From Corynebacterium sp. P4-C1 (GTDB lineage: Bacteria > Actinomycetota > Actinomycetes > Mycobacteriales > Mycobacteriaceae), in the NCBI RefSeq assembly GCF_030503595.1, contig NZ_CP129966.1, positions 1,798,001 to 1,862,000 of the forward strand: DNA of 64,000 nucleotides, read 5' to 3'. A program made the position numbers and the translations under genes. Below are positions 56,165 to 63,089 of this stretch, piece by piece. Each line of letters starts with the position of its first letter. Position 1 is the first letter of the stretch. The notes under the pieces were generated by a model. That model did no database searches, was not told where the DNA came from, and worked only from the letters and a program-made list of their open reading frames with translations.

Positions 56165-59100
56165 ATGACGGAAAGCGAGCTCACCACCTGGTTGCAGTCG
56201 TGGATCTCCGATGCGACGGGGGCTGACACTGTCGATCCGTCTGTTCCGCTGGATAACCTCGGTCTTTCCTCGCGCGACGTGGTCGTGCTGTCCGGCGAGC
56301 TCGAGCGGCTCCTGGACATCAAGCTCGACCCGACGGTCGCGTACCAGTACCCGACGGTGGAAGCACTCGCGCACGGCCTGCTCGCTCCGACGGCAACCGG
56401 TGCACAGCGCTTGTCGACGTCCGGTCCCGCCTTTCCCGCCCAGCGCACAGCCGGCCTGGGCTCCGGCGACATCGCCATCGTCGGCCGCGCCGGCCGTTTC
56501 CCGGGTGCGCAGAATGTCGACGAATTCTGGGATCTGCTCGTCTCCGGCCAGTCGGTCACCGGACCGTTGCCGGAGGGCCGCTGGACCGAATACTCGCAGG
56601 ACCCGGTGATGTCGGCGAAGATGCGCGAGCAGAATATCCAGGGCGGCTACCTGGACGACATCCGCACCTTCGACAACGAATTCTTCGGCCTGTCCCCGCT
56701 TGAGGCGGAGAACATGGACCCGCAGCAGCGCATCATGCTGGAGCTGGCGTGGGAGGCGCTCGAGGACGCGCACATCCCGGCTAACCGGCTGCGCGGGGAG
56801 TCCGTCGGTGTGTTCGTGGGGTCGTCCTCGAACGACTACGGCATGCTGATCACCTCCGACCCGGCTTCGGCGCACCCGTACGCGCTGACCGGCACGTCGA
56901 GCGCGGTGATCCCGAACCGTATTTCCTACGCTTTCGATTTCCGCGGGCCGTCGATGAATGTGGACACGGCCTGCTCGTCGTCCCTGGTATCGGTCCACCA
57001 CGCCGTGCGCGCGCTGCGCGGCGGCGAATCCGACGTGGCCCTGGCCGGCGGCGTGAATATCCTCGCCTCCCCGTTCATCTCCACTGCCTTCGCTGAACTC
57101 GGCGTGATCAGCCCGTCCGGGAAGATCAGCGCGTTTTCCGACGATGCCGACGGCTTCGTCCGCGCGGAGGCGGCGGGATTCATCGTGCTCAAGCGCGTTG
57201 AGGATGCAATTGCCGACGGCGACGAGGTCCTCGCCGTGATCAAGGGCTCGGCGACCAATTCCGACGGCCACTCCAACGGTCTCACCGCCCCCAACCCGGA
57301 GGCCCAGGTGGACGTGCTGCGCCGCGCCTACGCCGATGCGGGCATCGACCCGGCTGCGGTGGACCTGGTGGAGGCGCACGGCACCGGCACGGCGCTCGGC
57401 GACCCGATCGAGGCGACTGCGCTCGGCCAGGTGCTCGGTGCGGGGCGTGCCGATGCGGATCCGTTGCTGCTCGGCTCGGCGAAGTCGAATATCGGCCACT
57501 CCGAGTCCGCTGCTGGCGTGGTGGCCATGATCAAGGTGATCGAGGCCCTGACCCGCAGCACAGTTCCTCCGACGGCGAATTTCACCACCGGCAACAAGTT
57601 CATCGACTTCGACGCGACGAAGATTGAGGTCGTCGAGGATCCCCGTGAGTGGCCCGAGTACTCCGGCCGCCGCATTGCCGGCGTGTCCGGCTTCGGTTTC
57701 GGCGGCACCAACGCCCACATCGTGGTCAGCGACTTCGACCCGGCGGAATACGATGTTCCCGCCCGCGTGCCGTCTGCCGGCCTGGTCGACCCGGCCAACC
57801 CGGACACGGTGCTGCTGCCGGTCTCGGGGTTGCTGCCGTCGCGCCGCCGTGAGTTGGCCGCCGCTGTGGCGGAATCCCTGACCGATGGCACCGACCTGCG
57901 CGCCGTCGCCCGCACCCTGGCCGGCCGCAACCACGGCCGTTCCCGCGCGGTGGTCACCGCCTCCACCGTGGAGGAAGCGCGCAAGCGTCTCGGCTACGTC
58001 GCTGAGGGCAAGGTCACCCAGGGCGTGGCGGCGGCGGATGCGCCGTCGCCCGCTGGCCCGGTCTTCGTCTACTCCGGTTTCGGCTCCCAGCACCGCAAGA
58101 TGGTCAAGCCGCTGGTGGAGCTATCACCGGCGTTCCGCGCCCGGATCCAGGAACTGGACAAGGTCGTTGAGTTCGAATCCGGCTGGTCGATGCTGGACAT
58201 CATTCTCGACGACGAGCAGACCTACGACACGGAAACCGGCCAGGTCACCGTCACCGCCATTCAGATTGCGCTGACGGACTTGCTGGCCAGCTACGGCATC
58301 ACCCCGGCCGCCACCATGGGAATGTCCATGGGCGAGATTGCCGCGGCATATGCTGCCGACGGCTTGAGCGCCGAGGACGCCATGCTGATCGCCTGCACCC
58401 GCGCTCGCCTGATGGGCGAGGGTGAGAAGACCGTCGAGGGCACCGAGCAGGAAGGCGCGATGGCCGTGGTGGAGTTGTCGCGGGAGGAGCTTGAGGGCTT
58501 CGTCGATAAGCACCCGGAAGCTGCCGGTGTCGAGCCCGCCGTCTACGCGGGCCCGGGCATGACCACGGTGGGTGGCCCCGGAAAGGCCGTGGACTACCTG
58601 GTCGCGGCGCTCGAAGAGGAGAGCAAGTTCGCGCGCAAGTTGAATGTTCGCGGCGCGGGCCACACGAGCATGCTCGACCCGATTCTCGGCGAGCTCGCCG
58701 GCGACATCGCGGGCATCGAACCGAAACCGCTCCGGATCCCGCACTTCGGCTCCGTCGACGGCACTCACCGTGTCGGCGAGACGATCCATGACGTGGACTA
58801 CTGGATCCGCATGACGCGCCAGCCGGTGCTGTTCCAGGACGCCACCGAGGCCGCGCTCGCCGCGGGCCACACGATCCTGGTGGAGATCTCCCCGAACCCG
58901 GTGGCGATCATGGGCATGATGAACACGGCGTTCACCGTGGGCAAGCCCGACACCCAGCTGCTCTTCGCCCTCAAGCGCAAGGAGAGCGAGCCAGGCACGC
59001 TGCTCGATCTCGCCGCCAAGCTCTACGTTTCCGGCATGCCGGTGGACTTCGCCGCGCTCGCCGGCGACGGTGCCCGCGCCGACGTTCCACACACGCCGCT

Positions 59101-60952
59101 GCACCGCAACGAACTGTGGACATCCGCGCGCCCGAGCTCCTCCGGCTCCGGCCCGCTCGGCGCGAAGGTGACCCTGCCGGACGGCACGATCGTCTACGCG
59201 GCGCCGGCCGACCAGATCTTCTCCGCGATGCAGATCGTGGAGCTCGCCGCCGCCGAGGTCGATGCGAAGGCCAACGTCGTCGCGGTCGAGGAGCGTGCGC
59301 CGCTGCCCGCAGCCGGCGAACTGACCACCATGGTCCGCCGTGGCTTGGGCGGGTTGACCATCACTGTCTACAACGGCGCGATCCTCGTTGCGGAAGGCTT
59401 CGCCTCCACGCTGGACCTGGGCCAGGCGACGCTTCCGGGCGTGACCGAAGCACCGCAGCCGGCGCCGGAGGTGAAGGCCGCCCGCGAGCAGCTGATCCGC
59501 GGCGCCACCGACGACATCGATGTCGTGCGGTGGGACCCGGCGACCGAGACCGTTGAGGAGCGTCTCCGCGCGATCGTGTCCGAATCGATGGGCTACGACG
59601 TCGACGACTTGCCCGACGAACTTCCGCTGATCGACCTCGGGCTCGACTCCCTGATGGGCATGCGCATCAAGAACCGTGTCGAGAACGACTTCCAGATCCC
59701 GCCGCTGCAGGTGCAGGCGCTCCGCGAGGCGTCTGTCGCCGACGTCATCGCCATGGTGGAGGAAGCCGTCGCCGGCAACGCCGATGGCGCCCAGCCGATG
59801 GCGGAAAACGACCCGCACCGCGACCCGGCGCACGCCGTAGAGAAGGCAAAGGATGCCGGAGCCGGCGTCGGCGTCGCCCCGCGCGACGCCTCCGAGCGCA
59901 TGGTCTTCGGCGCCTGGGCCAAGTACGCCGGCCAGGCAGCCGCAGGTGTGACCTCCCCGCTGCCGGAGATCGCCCGCGGGCAGGCCGAGCAGATCGCCGC
60001 GCACCTGACGGAGCGCTCCGGCATCGAGGTCAGCGCCGACGATGTGCTGGCCGCCGAGACCCTCGAGCCGCTGGCTAACACCGTGCGTGAAGGTCTGGAG
60101 AGCCCGGTCGAGGGCAATATCCGCGTCATGCGCGAGCGCACTGACGAGACCACACCGTCCCTCTTCGTCTTCCACCCGGCCGGCGGATCCAGCGTGGTCT
60201 ACCAGCCGCTGACCCGCCGCTTGCCCGATAACGTGCCGGTCTATGGCATCGAGCGTCTTGAAGGCACCTTGGAAGACCGTGCCGCGGCTTATATCGCGGA
60301 TATCGAGCGCCTTGCCGCCGGCCAGCCGATCGTGCTCGCCGGCTGGTCCTTCGGCGGTGCCCTGGCTTACGAGGTCGCGCACCAGCTGCAGAGCCGCAAG
60401 GGAACCGACGCTGAAATCCCGGTGAAATTCATCGCCCTTCTGGACACCACCCAGCCGTCGAACCCGACGCCGGACACCCCTGAGGAGACGAAGAAGCGCT
60501 GGGAGCGTTACGCCGCATTCGCGAAAGACACCTACGGCCTTGACTTCGAGGTGCCGTATGAGCTGCTCGAGACCGCGGGTGAGGACGCGATGCTGCAGAT
60601 GCTCGCTGATTTCCTCGCCACCACCGATGCTTCCGAGCACGGTTTGGCTGCGGGTGTGCTGGAGCACCAGCGCGCGTCCTTCGTGGACAACCAGATCCTG
60701 GCCAAGGTGGACATGCAGGACTGGGCCGACGTGGATCTGCCCGTGCTGCTCTTCCGCGCGGAGCGCATGCACGACGGCGCGATCATGCTTGAGCCGGCTT
60801 ACGAGGAGATCGACCCGGACGGTGGCTGGGCCGCTATCGTGGAGGACCTGACTATCGTGCAGCTGCCGGGCGACCACCTGGCAGTTGTGGATGAACCCGC
60901 GGTGGGGATCGTGGGCAAGCACATCGCCGAATGGATCGCCGAGGTGGATTAA
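56165..60952 (+). CDS. pks13: Mycolic acid condensing polyketide synthase Pks13
   Basis: The 1595-residue type I PKS condenses the activated fatty acid with a carboxyacyl-CoA to the mycolic beta-ketoester. Its domain order is ACP-KS-AT-ACP-TE. N-terminal ACP has its attachment Ser36 in LGLSSRD. The ketosynthase has Cys270 in VDTACSSS with its His pair in EAHGTGTALGDP and SNIGHSESAAG. The acyltransferase has Ser721 in GMSMGEIAAAY. The C-terminal ACP has Ser1162 in LGLDSLMGMR. The thioesterase has Ser1395 in GWSFGGALAYE and His in PGDHLAVV. The size is a little smaller than mycobacterial Pks13. All catalytic residues are present. Confidence 0.97.
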   Translation: MTESELTTWLQSWISDATGADTVDPSVPLDNLGLSSRDVVVLSGELERLLDIKLDPTVAYQYPTVEALAHGLLAPTATGAQRLSTSGPAFPAQRTAGLGSGDIAIVGRAGRFPGAQNVDEFWDLLVSGQSVTGPLPEGRWTEYSQDPVMSAKMREQNIQGGYLDDIRTFDNEFFGLSPLEAENMDPQQRIMLELAWEALEDAHIPANRLRGESVGVFVGSSSNDYGMLITSDPASAHPYALTGTSSAVIPNRISYAFDFRGPSMNVDTACSSSLVSVHHAVRALRGGESDVALAGGVNILASPFISTAFAELGVISPSGKISAFSDDADGFVRAEAAGFIVLKRVEDAIADGDEVLAVIKGSATNSDGHSNGLTAPNPEAQVDVLRRAYADAGIDPAAVDLVEAHGTGTALGDPIEATALGQVLGAGRADADPLLLGSAKSNIGHSESAAGVVAMIKVIEALTRSTVPPTANFTTGNKFIDFDATKIEVVEDPREWPEYSGRRIAGVSGFGFGGTNAHIVVSDFDPAEYDVPARVPSAGLVDPANPDTVLLPVSGLLPSRRRELAAAVAESLTDGTDLRAVARTLAGRNHGRSRAVVTASTVEEARKRLGYVAEGKVTQGVAAADAPSPAGPVFVYSGFGSQHRKMVKPLVELSPAFRARIQELDKVVEFESGWSMLDIILDDEQTYDTETGQVTVTAIQIALTDLLASYGITPAATMGMSMGEIAAAYAADGLSAEDAMLIACTRARLMGEGEKTVEGTEQEGAMAVVELSREELEGFVDKHPEAAGVEPAVYAGPGMTTVGGPGKAVDYLVAALEEESKFARKLNVRGAGHTSMLDPILGELAGDIAGIEPKPLRIPHFGSVDGTHRVGETIHDVDYWIRMTRQPVLFQDATEAALAAGHTILVEISPNPVAIMGMMNTAFTVGKPDTQLLFALKRKESEPGTLLDLAAKLYVSGMPVDFAALAGDGARADVPHTPLHRNELWTSARPSSSGSGPLGAKVTLPDGTIVYAAPADQIFSAMQIVELAAAEVDAKANVVAVEERAPLPAAGELTTMVRRGLGGLTITVYNGAILVAEGFASTLDLGQATLPGVTEAPQPAPEVKAAREQLIRGATDDIDVVRWDPATETVEERLRAIVSESMGYDVDDLPDELPLIDLGLDSLMGMRIKNRVENDFQIPPLQVQALREASVADVIAMVEEAVAGNADGAQPMAENDPHRDPAHAVEKAKDAGAGVGVAPRDASERMVFGAWAKYAGQAAAGVTSPLPEIARGQAEQIAAHLTERSGIEVSADDVLAAETLEPLANTVREGLESPVEGNIRVMRERTDETTPSLFVFHPAGGSSVVYQPLTRRLPDNVPVYGIERLEGTLEDRAAAYIADIERLAAGQPIVLAGWSFGGALAYEVAHQLQSRKGTDAEIPVKFIALLDTTQPSNPTPDTPEETKKRWERYAAFAKDTYGLDFEVPYELLETAGEDAMLQMLADFLATTDASEHGLAAGVLEHQRASFVDNQILAKVDMQDWADVDLPVLLFRAERMHDGAIMLEPAYEEIDPDGGWAAIVEDLTIVQLPGDHLAVVDEPAVGIVGKHIAEWIAEVD

Positions 60953-60956
60953 GACA

Positions 60957-62510
60957 ATGACGATGCCGATGACGACCGCTGAGAAACTCGCCGACCTGCG
61001 CGACCGCCTGGAGCGTGCACAGGACCCGGGCTCCGAGCGGGCGCGCAAGCGCCGCGACGATGCCGGGCAGACCACGCCCCGCCAGCGCATCAACGCGCTT
61101 CTCGATGAAGGGTCGTTCGTCGAAACCGGTGCGCTCGCCCGCACCCCCGGCGACGACGACGCGGTCTATTCCGACGGCGTGGTCACCGGCTACGGGCGTA
61201 TCGACGGCCGGCCGGTGGCCATCTACGCCCACGACAAGACCGTCTACGGCGGTTCCGTCGGTGTGACCTTCGGCCGCAAAGTGGTCGACGTGATGGAGCT
61301 GGCCATCAAGGTCGGCTGCCCCGTCATCGGCATCCAGGACTCCGGCGGCGCCCGCATCCAGGACGCGGTGACCTCGCTGGCGATGTACTCGGAAATCGCC
61401 CGCCGCCAGCTGCCGCTATCGGGCCGCTCCCCGCAGATCTCCATCATGCTGGGCAAGTCCGCCGGCGGCGCCGTGTACGCCCCGGTGACCACCGACTTCA
61501 TTGTGGCGGTCGACGGCCAAGCTGAAATGTACGTAACCGGCCCCGCCGTCATCCGCGAGGTCACCGGTGAGGATGTCTCCTCGGCGGAGCTCGGCGGCGC
61601 GATGCAGCAGGAGCAGAACGGTAACGTCTCCGTCACCGTCCCGAGCGAGGAGGAGGCCTTCGAGTTCGTCCGCGACCTGCTCGGCCACCTGCCCACCAGC
61701 GCATTCGACGAGCCGCCGGTGGCGTGGGCCCCGTCCGACGAGGACCTGGACGATTCCGCGCTCGACAGCTTCATGCCGGACGACACCAACGCCGGTTACG
61801 ACATGATGGACCTTCTGGTCCAGCTCGGCGACGACGAAGAAATCCTCGAGATCCAGGAGAATTACGCTCCGAACCTGATCTGCGCCATTGGGCGTATCGA
61901 CGGCCGACCCGTCGGCTTCGTGGCCAACAACCCCATGCACTTCGCCGGCTGCATCGATGCCGACGCCGCCGACAAGGGCGCGCGCTTCATCCAGATCTGC
62001 GACGCGTACAACCTGCCCCTGATCTTCGTCGTGGACACGCCGGGCTACCTGCCGGGCGTGGACCAGGAGAAGGTCGGTCTGATCCACCGCGGCGCCAAGC
62101 TGGCGTTCTCCGTGGTGCAGTCGACGGTGCCGAAGATCTCCCTGATCGTCCGTAAGGCCTACGGTGGTGCCTACGCCGTGATGGGCTCGAAGAACCTCTC
62201 CGGCGACCTGAATTTCGCGTGGCCCACCGCGCAGATCGCCGTGATGGGCTCCGCCGCGGCGGCTGTGATGATCCAAGGTAAGCAACTCGCCGCCATCGAG
62301 GACGAAGCGCAGCGCAACGCGATGAAGAAGATGTTCATGGACTTCTACGAGGAGAATATGACCTCCCCGTACGTGGCCACGGAACGCGGCTACCTCGACG
62401 GCATGATCCAGCCCTCGGAGACGCGCCTGATGCTGCGCCGTGCGCTACGCCAGCTGTCCACCAAGTACGACGCCGACCTGCCGAAGAAGCACAATATTCA
62501 CCCGCTGTAG
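60957..62510 (+). CDS. accD3: Acyl-CoA carboxylase carboxyltransferase subunit for mycolate synthesis
   Basis: The 517-residue carboxyltransferase beta subunit carboxylates long-chain acyl-CoA to supply Pks13 with the extender unit, in a complex with AccBC, AccE and another AccD. The crotonase-like halves carry GVTFGRKVVDVMELAIKVGCPVIGIQDSGGARIQ with oxyanion-hole glycines, and the second-half signature PHGxx region near FVVDTPGYLPGVDQEKVGLI. In C. glutamicum this position is accD3, and in mycobacteria accD4. ATG 60957 is 4 bases after pks13's stop, with no visible ribosome binding site of its own, so it is coupled to pks13. Confidence 0.93.
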   Translation: MTMPMTTAEKLADLRDRLERAQDPGSERARKRRDDAGQTTPRQRINALLDEGSFVETGALARTPGDDDAVYSDGVVTGYGRIDGRPVAIYAHDKTVYGGSVGVTFGRKVVDVMELAIKVGCPVIGIQDSGGARIQDAVTSLAMYSEIARRQLPLSGRSPQISIMLGKSAGGAVYAPVTTDFIVAVDGQAEMYVTGPAVIREVTGEDVSSAELGGAMQQEQNGNVSVTVPSEEEAFEFVRDLLGHLPTSAFDEPPVAWAPSDEDLDDSALDSFMPDDTNAGYDMMDLLVQLGDDEEILEIQENYAPNLICAIGRIDGRPVGFVANNPMHFAGCIDADAADKGARFIQICDAYNLPLIFVVDTPGYLPGVDQEKVGLIHRGAKLAFSVVQSTVPKISLIVRKAYGGAYAVMGSKNLSGDLNFAWPTAQIAVMGSAAAAVMIQGKQLAAIEDEAQRNAMKKMFMDFYEENMTSPYVATERGYLDGMIQPSETRLMLRRALRQLSTKYDADLPKKHNIHPL

Positions 62511-62555
62511 CCGGATCCGTAACGGTTGTGTAACGCTGCCGGGGCCGGCCGCGAT

Positions 62556-62584
62556 AGTCGGGGAAGAAACAGAATTTCCCGACT
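62556..62584 (+). promoter_or_regulatory. Hairpin in the leader of the 36-residue peptide gene
   Basis: AGTCGGGGAA (62556-62565) and TTTCCCGACT (62575-62584) form a 10-position stem with one mismatch or G-T pair. It lies 18 bases before the start codon and just ahead of the ribosome binding site AGGAGG, where it could affect mRNA stability or translation. Confidence 0.5.
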
Positions 62585-62602
62585 ACCTACGCAGGAGGAA
62601 AC

Positions 62603-62713
62603 ATGCTCAGCAGCGTTCTGGATCTCGGTTCCGAGCTCATCAACTACATCGTGTGGATCGTCCGCTCGATCCAAAACGGCCAGATGCCGTTCAACGGCCA
62701 GATGCCGTTCTAA
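62603..62713 (+). CDS. 36-residue peptide with duplicated NGQMPF C-terminus
   Basis: The peptide MLSSVLDLGSELINYIVWIV... is hydrophobic and helical for its first 24 residues. It then ends with the hexapeptide NGQMPF twice. A strong AGGAGG lies 6 bases upstream, and a hairpin precedes it. It is too short for standard gene calling but has better translation signals than most neighbours. No homologue is recognised. Small mycomembrane peptides (PorA, PorH, ProtX) of corynebacteria have similar length and helix character; the adjacency to mycolate genes makes that a reasonable, untested comparison. Confidence 0.7.
   Translation: MLSSVLDLGSELINYIVWIVRSIQNGQMPFNGQMPF
62675..62710 (+). repeat. Exact 18-base tandem duplication within the small peptide gene
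   Basis: AACGGCCAGATGCCGTTC is present twice back to back, in frame, encoding NGQMPF-NGQMPF just before the stop codon. Confidence 0.95.
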
Positions 62714-62716
62714 GCG

Positions 62717-63079
62717 TTAACGCTTGATCAGGCGCGCAACGCCGCGCCACCCCAACATCAGCAGCGCCGACATCACGCTGGCCACGACAATGAAGGACCA
62801 GTGCGGCAGCTGCTGATTTTTCATGCCCCAGATGATCAGGCCGGTGGCGACCGTTACCAGCCAGATGAGCACCCCGCTGCGCGCACCCTCCGCCTTCCCG
62901 GCGAACGTGACGATCACCCAGGCGAGTGCCACACCGACCAGGAACGGCCACAACGTCGACAGCCAGCCGGTGAAATTCAACGGCATCTCGTCGGTCTGGT
63001 GCGCGATGCGGGCAAGCAGCGCGAAGACAGCGATGGCGAGGGTGTCCATGGCGATGGCGGTGGTCCTGGAGATCTTCAT
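62717..63079 (-). CDS. DUF3054 family membrane protein
   Basis: The 120-residue protein has four predicted membrane segments: TAIAMDTLAIAVFALLARIAH, LWPFLVGVALAWVIVTFAG, GVLIWLVTVATGLIIWGM and FIVVASVMSALLMLGWRG. It matches the DUF3054 family of actinobacteria, of unknown function. The start at 63079 (MKISRTTAI) has TAGAAT exactly 7 bases upstream, so it is leaderless. The 3' end converges on the 36-residue peptide gene, with the palindrome AAGCGTTAACGCTT between. Confidence 0.85.
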   Translation of the reverse strand: MKISRTTAIAMDTLAIAVFALLARIAHQTDEMPLNFTGWLSTLWPFLVGVALAWVIVTFAGKAEGARSGVLIWLVTVATGLIIWGMKNQQLPHWSFIVVASVMSALLMLGWRGVARLIKR

Positions 63080-63089
63080 ACGCCCCATT

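Follow-up and report, generated by a model that had tools for sequence, protein, structure and literature searches.

The window analysed here, a stretch of 64,000 nucleotides of Corynebacterium sp. P4-C1 DNA, ends in a mycolate cluster in which accD3 is followed by a gene for a peptide of 36 residues. Sequence comparison with relatives confirms that this gene is real, conserved and linked to the mycolate cluster, and its product is probably a very small, hitherto undescribed constituent of the outer envelope of corynebacteria. The reading we favour, with a probability of about one half, is a sigma-D-controlled mycomembrane micropeptide of pks13-positive corynebacteria that would work like PorA or ProtX. 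The most telling element is a promoter of the sigma-D type, which lies just outside the coordinates given to the gene in a previous sequence-only reading. The features of the region are the following.

56165-60952, + strand: pks13, an ORF of 1595 residues, which we take to be this gene from ORF size and gene order
60885-62510, + strand: accD3, acyl-CoA carboxylase beta subunit of mycolate synthesis; longest ORF, Pfam PF01039 on 61311-62507, named by gene order
62530-62555, + strand: sigma-D-type promoter; -35 GTAACG at 62530-62535, CGAT (-10 GAT) at 62552-62555
62555-62585, + strand: leader inverted repeat, arms 62555-62565 and 62575-62585, 10 of 11 positions complementary; probably incidental
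62593-62598, + strand: ribosome-binding site AGGAGG, read from the sequence
62603-62713, + strand: micropeptide gene, stop codon included; 36 residues, MLSSVLDLGSELINYIVWIVRSIQNGQMPFNGQMPF, predicted amphipathic helix 2-24
62675-62692, + strand: tandem repeat copy 1 (NGQMPF), 18 nt
62693-62710, + strand: tandem repeat copy 2, 18 nt; duplication seen only in the P4-C1 species
62717-63079, - strand: DUF3054 membrane-protein gene, convergent with the peptide gene; ATG at 63079, PF11255 with E 1.8e-25 on 62720-63085

The cluster comprises two esterase-family genes, which by family and position appear mycoloyltransferase-like, a cutinase-family gene, a fadD32-like gene, pks13, accD3, the peptide gene, the convergent DUF3054 gene and a CMAS-family methyltransferase gene; names other than Pfam matches are presumed from gene order. 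The peptide ORF starts 92 nt past the accD3 stop (62510). The sequence-only reading had described a 36-residue ORF with an AGGAGG, placed directly after pks13-accD3 and ending in an NGQMPF tail duplicated by an exact 18-nt tandem repeat, all of which the sequence bears out. It had also put serines at residues 3, 4 and 9; they are found at 3, 4, 10 and 22, and the tail has none. Downstream, a 14-base perfect palindrome, AAGCGTTAACGCTT, was seen by eye at 62712-62725, spanning the last part of the peptide's stop codon together with that of DUF3054, and no terminator-like site was called at it. Between 62400 and 62850, neither a sigma-70-type promoter nor an intrinsic terminator was found with a predictor that does not cover ECF promoters.

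Searching with the single sequence gave matches at E≤1 in 83 of 201 Corynebacterium genomes, the weaker ones by chance. A family profile (A1) was then made from 38 relatives of the same genus. It detected one clear copy in 104 of the 201 genomes (E≤1.3e-3, the next match being at 0.06), some of these matching by construction, as rows of the profile itself. Among 151 genomes of the bacterial family (31 genera), nothing outside Corynebacterium scored below 0.03. The check proposed in the sequence-only reading, conservation beside accD3 in relatives, came out in its favour: 94 of the 104 copies share the strand of accD3 and begin 15-218 nt past the accD3 match. The 10 others, also on the same strand, lie 0.66-18.8 kb downstream of accD3, behind inserted DNA. 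The accD3-peptide gap thus takes inserts of about 0.7-19 kb (L197-L205), whose contents, judged by eye in 6 of 9 loci from ORF sizes and sequence starts, include two polysaccharide-type clusters and one single ORF of 1622 aa (L203). The insert of L202 holds, by eye, a gene set resembling aromatic catabolism. At two loci (L028, L029), DUF3054 still adjoins the peptide gene, with accD3 14 kb away.

We also followed a set of named accD3 loci, the best 80 of the 102 accD3 relatives found. The family is present in 60 of these 80: 54 members counted by rule, one with a longer frame (L063) and five with a TTG start, found after the rule-based count. Another short peptide occupies the place downstream of accD3 in 3 of the 80, and in 17 neither was seen. 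In C. lowii and C. oculi (L071, L077), a longer frame after accD3, starting MLFSILKGLALATG and MIFTILKGLALATG respectively, replaces the peptide. The 54 rule-counted members are 28-39 aa long, a Shine-Dalgarno-like (SD) motif precedes 51 of them, and the pooled pN/pS is 0.30 over 17 non-overlapping pairs, shared ancestry not being corrected. Of the genomes in which A1 had no clear match, 97 in number, 46 were inspected downstream of accD3, by ATG, SD and length only. Five members searched against NCBIfam gave no match at E≤10, and against Pfam a single chance match (E 0.22, L008), none for the P4-C1 peptide. A relative among solved structures was rejected, the sole match being by chance (E 7.4). 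No description of the peptide was found among the papers listed and the passages available from the open-access literature searched, in which its N-terminal strings are absent too.

Within the sample, the family occurs only in genomes with pks13. With the first 500 aa of pks13 as query, this gene is found in 187 of the 201 Corynebacterium genomes (E≤1e-80). None of the 14 pks13-negative genomes, of which two are incomplete (G078, 77%; G119, 53%), carries the peptide family (Fisher p 2e-5, shared ancestry not corrected). Conversely, 83 of the 187 pks13-positive genomes have no clear family match, 8 of them having another peptide (A2, see below), and the family is therefore not essential to mycolate synthesis.

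Its putative regulation is read from the promoter. As given in the available parts of PMC6338062, the sigma-D promoter of C. glutamicum has a -35 GTAAC(A/G) and a -10 GAT, the rsdA promoter reads GTAAC-15 nt-CTCGAT in 37 of 38 species, and among the other sigma-D genes the promoter is conserved across species for cmt1 and cmt2 only. Both boxes are present upstream of the P4-C1 peptide gene. When seven leaders were aligned (P4-C1 window, conspecific genome and five other species), TGTAAC and CGATA were invariant, and the rest had diverged. A strict pattern, GTAAC-N16-18-CGAT at most 130 nt upstream of the gene, precedes 32 of the 54 rule-counted genes, the sixth base being A or G in all 32, against an expectation of 0.2 out of 54 from base shuffles and 0.07 out of 54 from the rest of the same loci. 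Five of nine initial background matches in fact precede the TTG-start members, which brings the count to 37 of the 60 family genes at the named loci (best 80 of 102). The pattern is found at none of the 17 named accD3 loci without peptide (again among the best 80 of 102 accD3 relatives), nor at any of 6 A2 loci from the C. glutamicum-like clade. Where an insertion has cut the gene off from accD3, it is found in 7 of the 9 loci tested (6 strict, 1 loose; 10 are known). Among 43 sites chosen by the pattern, spacers are 30% identical and fall into 25 clusters, so that the shared part consists of the two boxes; the promoter counts have no other ancestry correction.

This element precedes 32 of the 37 rule-counted genes lying at least 60 nt from accD3, and 0 of the 17 lying closer; the 22 genes without promoter are these 17 and 5 further away. 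The 17 close genes may thus be cotranscribed with accD3.

The peptide promoter is the sole strict match on the + strand of the 64-kb window. Over the whole P4-C1 genome, the pattern has 10 matches, versus 11 for a reversed control; a bare match is thus weak, and the case for the promoter rests on comparison. One of these ten lies inside an ECF sigma gene, just before an rsdA-like gene (no Pfam match, named by position), and has the form GTAAC-15 nt-CTCGAT, which suggests that this type of element is in use in P4-C1. Of two other pattern sites of the genome, L235 lies 126 nt upstream of a possible cutinase-family gene start and L242 12 nt upstream of a possible GH76 gene start. No strict match was found upstream of the other mycolate genes of the window or of P4-C1 porH; the homologues fadD2, pks and porH belong to the sigma-D genes in C. 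glutamicum, as far as the sources cover them. Sigma-D is the envelope-stress sigma factor. According to the accessible text of PMC11175481, its regulon in C. glutamicum counts porA, porH, ProtX and mycoloyltransferases among its members, responds when synthesis of mycolate or arabinogalactan is impaired, and is predicted to contain further assembly factors for small outer-membrane proteins. The peptide, tiny and amphipathic, preceded by a sigma-D-type promoter and seen in pks13-positive corynebacteria only, fits this set, and sigma-D presumably acts at the peptide gene.

Two features stressed in the sequence-only reading do not belong to what is conserved. The leader (62511-62605) folds at -34.9 kcal/mol, versus a shuffle mean of -28.1 (z -2.1), and the inverted repeat behind the hairpin proposed at 62556-62584 does exist. 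By eye, however, no such hairpin is seen in the aligned leaders of five other species, and a functional one was rejected on this ground. Were sigma-D to start transcription just past the GAT ending at 62555, the transcript would lack some of the left arm. The tail duplication is seen only in the P4-C1 genome and in a conspecific genome (G035/L032), whose second copy differs by one base. The five loci that come next in accD3 identity (L033-L037) end after a single copy, and tails differ in other groups of the family; the duplicated tail as a designed feature was rejected for these reasons. By this comparison, both the leader hairpin and the duplication of the tail are features of the species and lie outside the conserved design.

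AlphaFold2, run on alignment A3, predicts one helix at residues 2-24 (mean pLDDT 80.5) and a less certain tail. The hydrophobic moment of the P4-C1 peptide is 0.52 (p 0.0005), the family median z is 3.2, the family-averaged moment peaks at 100 degrees, and all 54 members lie above their own shuffles (p<0.05). Asp7 is invariant (54 of 54), position 11 is Asp in 34 members and Glu in 20, position 14 is Asn, Gly or Ser in 52 of 54, and position 21 is Asn in 38 of 54. Ser3 is found in 53 of 54 members, and Ser or Thr at residue 4 in 49. Net charge ranges from 0 to -4 and cysteines number zero across the 54 members, 38 of which have a serine past residue 24.

If these elements are taken together, the gene would work as follows. 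When assembly of mycolate or arabinogalactan is disturbed, sigma-D would transcribe the peptide gene along with mycoloyltransferases and porins. A product of 28-39 residues has no room for both a Sec signal and a mature protein; we propose that it leaves the cytoplasm by the same route as PorA, PorH and ProtX. It would then insert as an amphipathic helix, whose face made of Asp7, Asp/Glu11, Asn14 and Asn/Arg21 may line or contact a mycomembrane oligomer, and so either form a small pore or help other small outer-membrane peptides to assemble. A narrower version makes of the peptide a sigma-D-controlled factor that places small helical proteins in the mycomembrane, a widespread corynebacterial scaffold or pore partner, distinct from the porins already known and made when mycolate/arabinogalactan assembly fails; we consider it unlikely in so specific a form.

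The main rival is a regulatory micropeptide that sits in the inner membrane and belongs to the envelope-stress response. It would bind a membrane enzyme or transporter of mycolate synthesis or export, for which AccD3-Pks13, a mycolate exporter and the sigma-D proteolysis chain are candidates, and would tune it in the manner of small stress peptides of other bacteria. The sigma-D-type promoter suits such a role as well, the genomic tie to accD3 and DUF3054 points the same way, and invariant Asp7 with an acidic residue at position 11 suggests a specific contact. Against it, the helix is not hydrophobic all round but amphipathic, a long polar stripe running along it, and the 0.7-19 kb that part the peptide from accD3 in 10 of 104 genomes indicate that there is no strict pairing with AccD3. 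We hold this regulator to be possible, on the lower side. By contrast with a regulator, a hydrophobic peptide akin to type I toxins, or a leader peptide whose product has no function of its own, appears highly improbable: length and hydrophobicity are presumably in the usual range for these, but the gene is single-copy, syntenic and under purifying selection, the net charge is -4 to 0 in the 54 members, and a leader peptide would have nothing to lead since the downstream gene is convergent. As for a chance ORF behind an accidental Shine-Dalgarno sequence, which the short length would allow, conservation rules it out, with 104 of 201 genomes, pN/pS of 0.30 and a recurrent ribosome-binding site and promoter.

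Within the mycomembrane reading itself, the question arises whether the peptide is O-mycoloylated, as the sequence-only reading had proposed from its N-terminal serines. The strict form of this sub-case, with Ser3/Ser4 modified by a protein mycoloyltransferase, seems doubtful from the sequences. The near invariance of Ser3 and of Ser/Thr4 (53 and 49 of 54) argues for it, and in the part of PMC11066868 available, O-mycoloylome sites are serines neighbouring another serine and small residues, with no strict motif. An added mycolate has a mass of 478-530 Da in C. glutamicum (PMC5310785, available part). On the other side, the modelled helix already begins at residue 2, and the mapped sites given in the available sources are PorA Ser15, in a modelled linker, PorH Ser56 of 57 and ProtX Ser37, the last two penultimate. 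The penultimate serine mycoloylated in PorH and ProtX has no counterpart in the serine-free tail of the P4-C1 peptide, though 38 of 54 members do have a serine after residue 24. The N-terminal serines are thus a weak argument for this modification.

The sigma-D-controlled mycomembrane micropeptide remains our preferred reading. A conserved micropeptide beside mycolate genes, with a recurrent sigma-D-type promoter and no match in Pfam or NCBIfam, is a concrete, deletable candidate, and it bears on how corynebacteria export and insert tiny outer-membrane proteins. For small mycoloylated proteins of this sort, bottom-up proteomics is described as not ideal in the accessible text of PMC11066868.

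Among known systems, the likeness to PorA, PorH and ProtX seen in the sequence-only reading holds for the tiny size, the amphipathic helix, the restriction to pks13-positive genomes of our sample and the sigma-D-type promoter; it does not extend to a sequence relation with the porH/porA-like pair of P4-C1. PorA and PorH of C. glutamicum, as described in the available parts of PMC11175481, PMC12632848 (a preprint) and PMC5310785, are very small, alpha-helical and amphipathic, without recognised signal sequence; the peptide shares these traits, as judged by its AlphaFold2 helix 2-24 and its moment. However, their locus is between groEL2 and ppk2 and that of the peptide beside accD3, and porH/porA form a tandem pair where the peptide is a single, shorter gene (28-39 aa). 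P4-C1 has its own pair in the groEL2-ppk2 interval, named by position and size.

L114:4223-4393 (in G000:C1:1997222-1997582): PorH-like ORF, 56 aa, between groEL2 and ppk2
L114:4437-4583 (in G000:C1:1997222-1997582): PorA-like ORF, 48 aa, between groEL2 and ppk2

Compared by hhalign with these two ORFs, the only PorH/PorA-like sequences used, the peptide family gave probabilities of 0.3% and 0.2%, and homology to them was rejected. Because neither locus nor sequence agrees, the peptide is not filed as a PorA/PorH member. Directly upstream of P4-C1 porH, no GTAAC-N-GAT element was found. A second PorH-like sequence exists in the genome at G000:C1:1606008-1606124 on the - strand (E 9.7e-7, 41% identity).

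ProtX (cg2875) is likened to the peptide by description, as another small, sigma-D-controlled mycomembrane peptide (PMC11175481 and PMC5310785, available parts), whose function is called unknown in the accessible text of PMC5310785; its gene lies at cg2875, and the peptide gene beside accD3 (cg3177). The place of the peptide is that of cg3176 in C. glutamicum, a hypothetical gene beside accD3 likened by position alone (PMC7775120, available part). In the C. glutamicum-like clade, peptides of 25-27 aa (A2, consensus MTIIAILLGIDIFSTxLPYIQGLLSY, in 8 of 201 genomes) occupy this same place after accD3, with an SD in most (L099, L100, L101, L179, L181, L187). Alignment of A2 with the peptide family by hhalign gave P 0.012 and a probability of 3.5%, and A2 was kept apart despite the shared position. 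Finally, PorACj of C. jeikeium (40 aa) and PorACur of C. urealyticum (~4 kDa) are of the size of the peptide and are reported as homo-oligomeric channels in the available parts of PMC3792995 and PMC5944148; likened by description, they lie between groEL2 and ppk2, whereas the peptide gene stands beside accD3.
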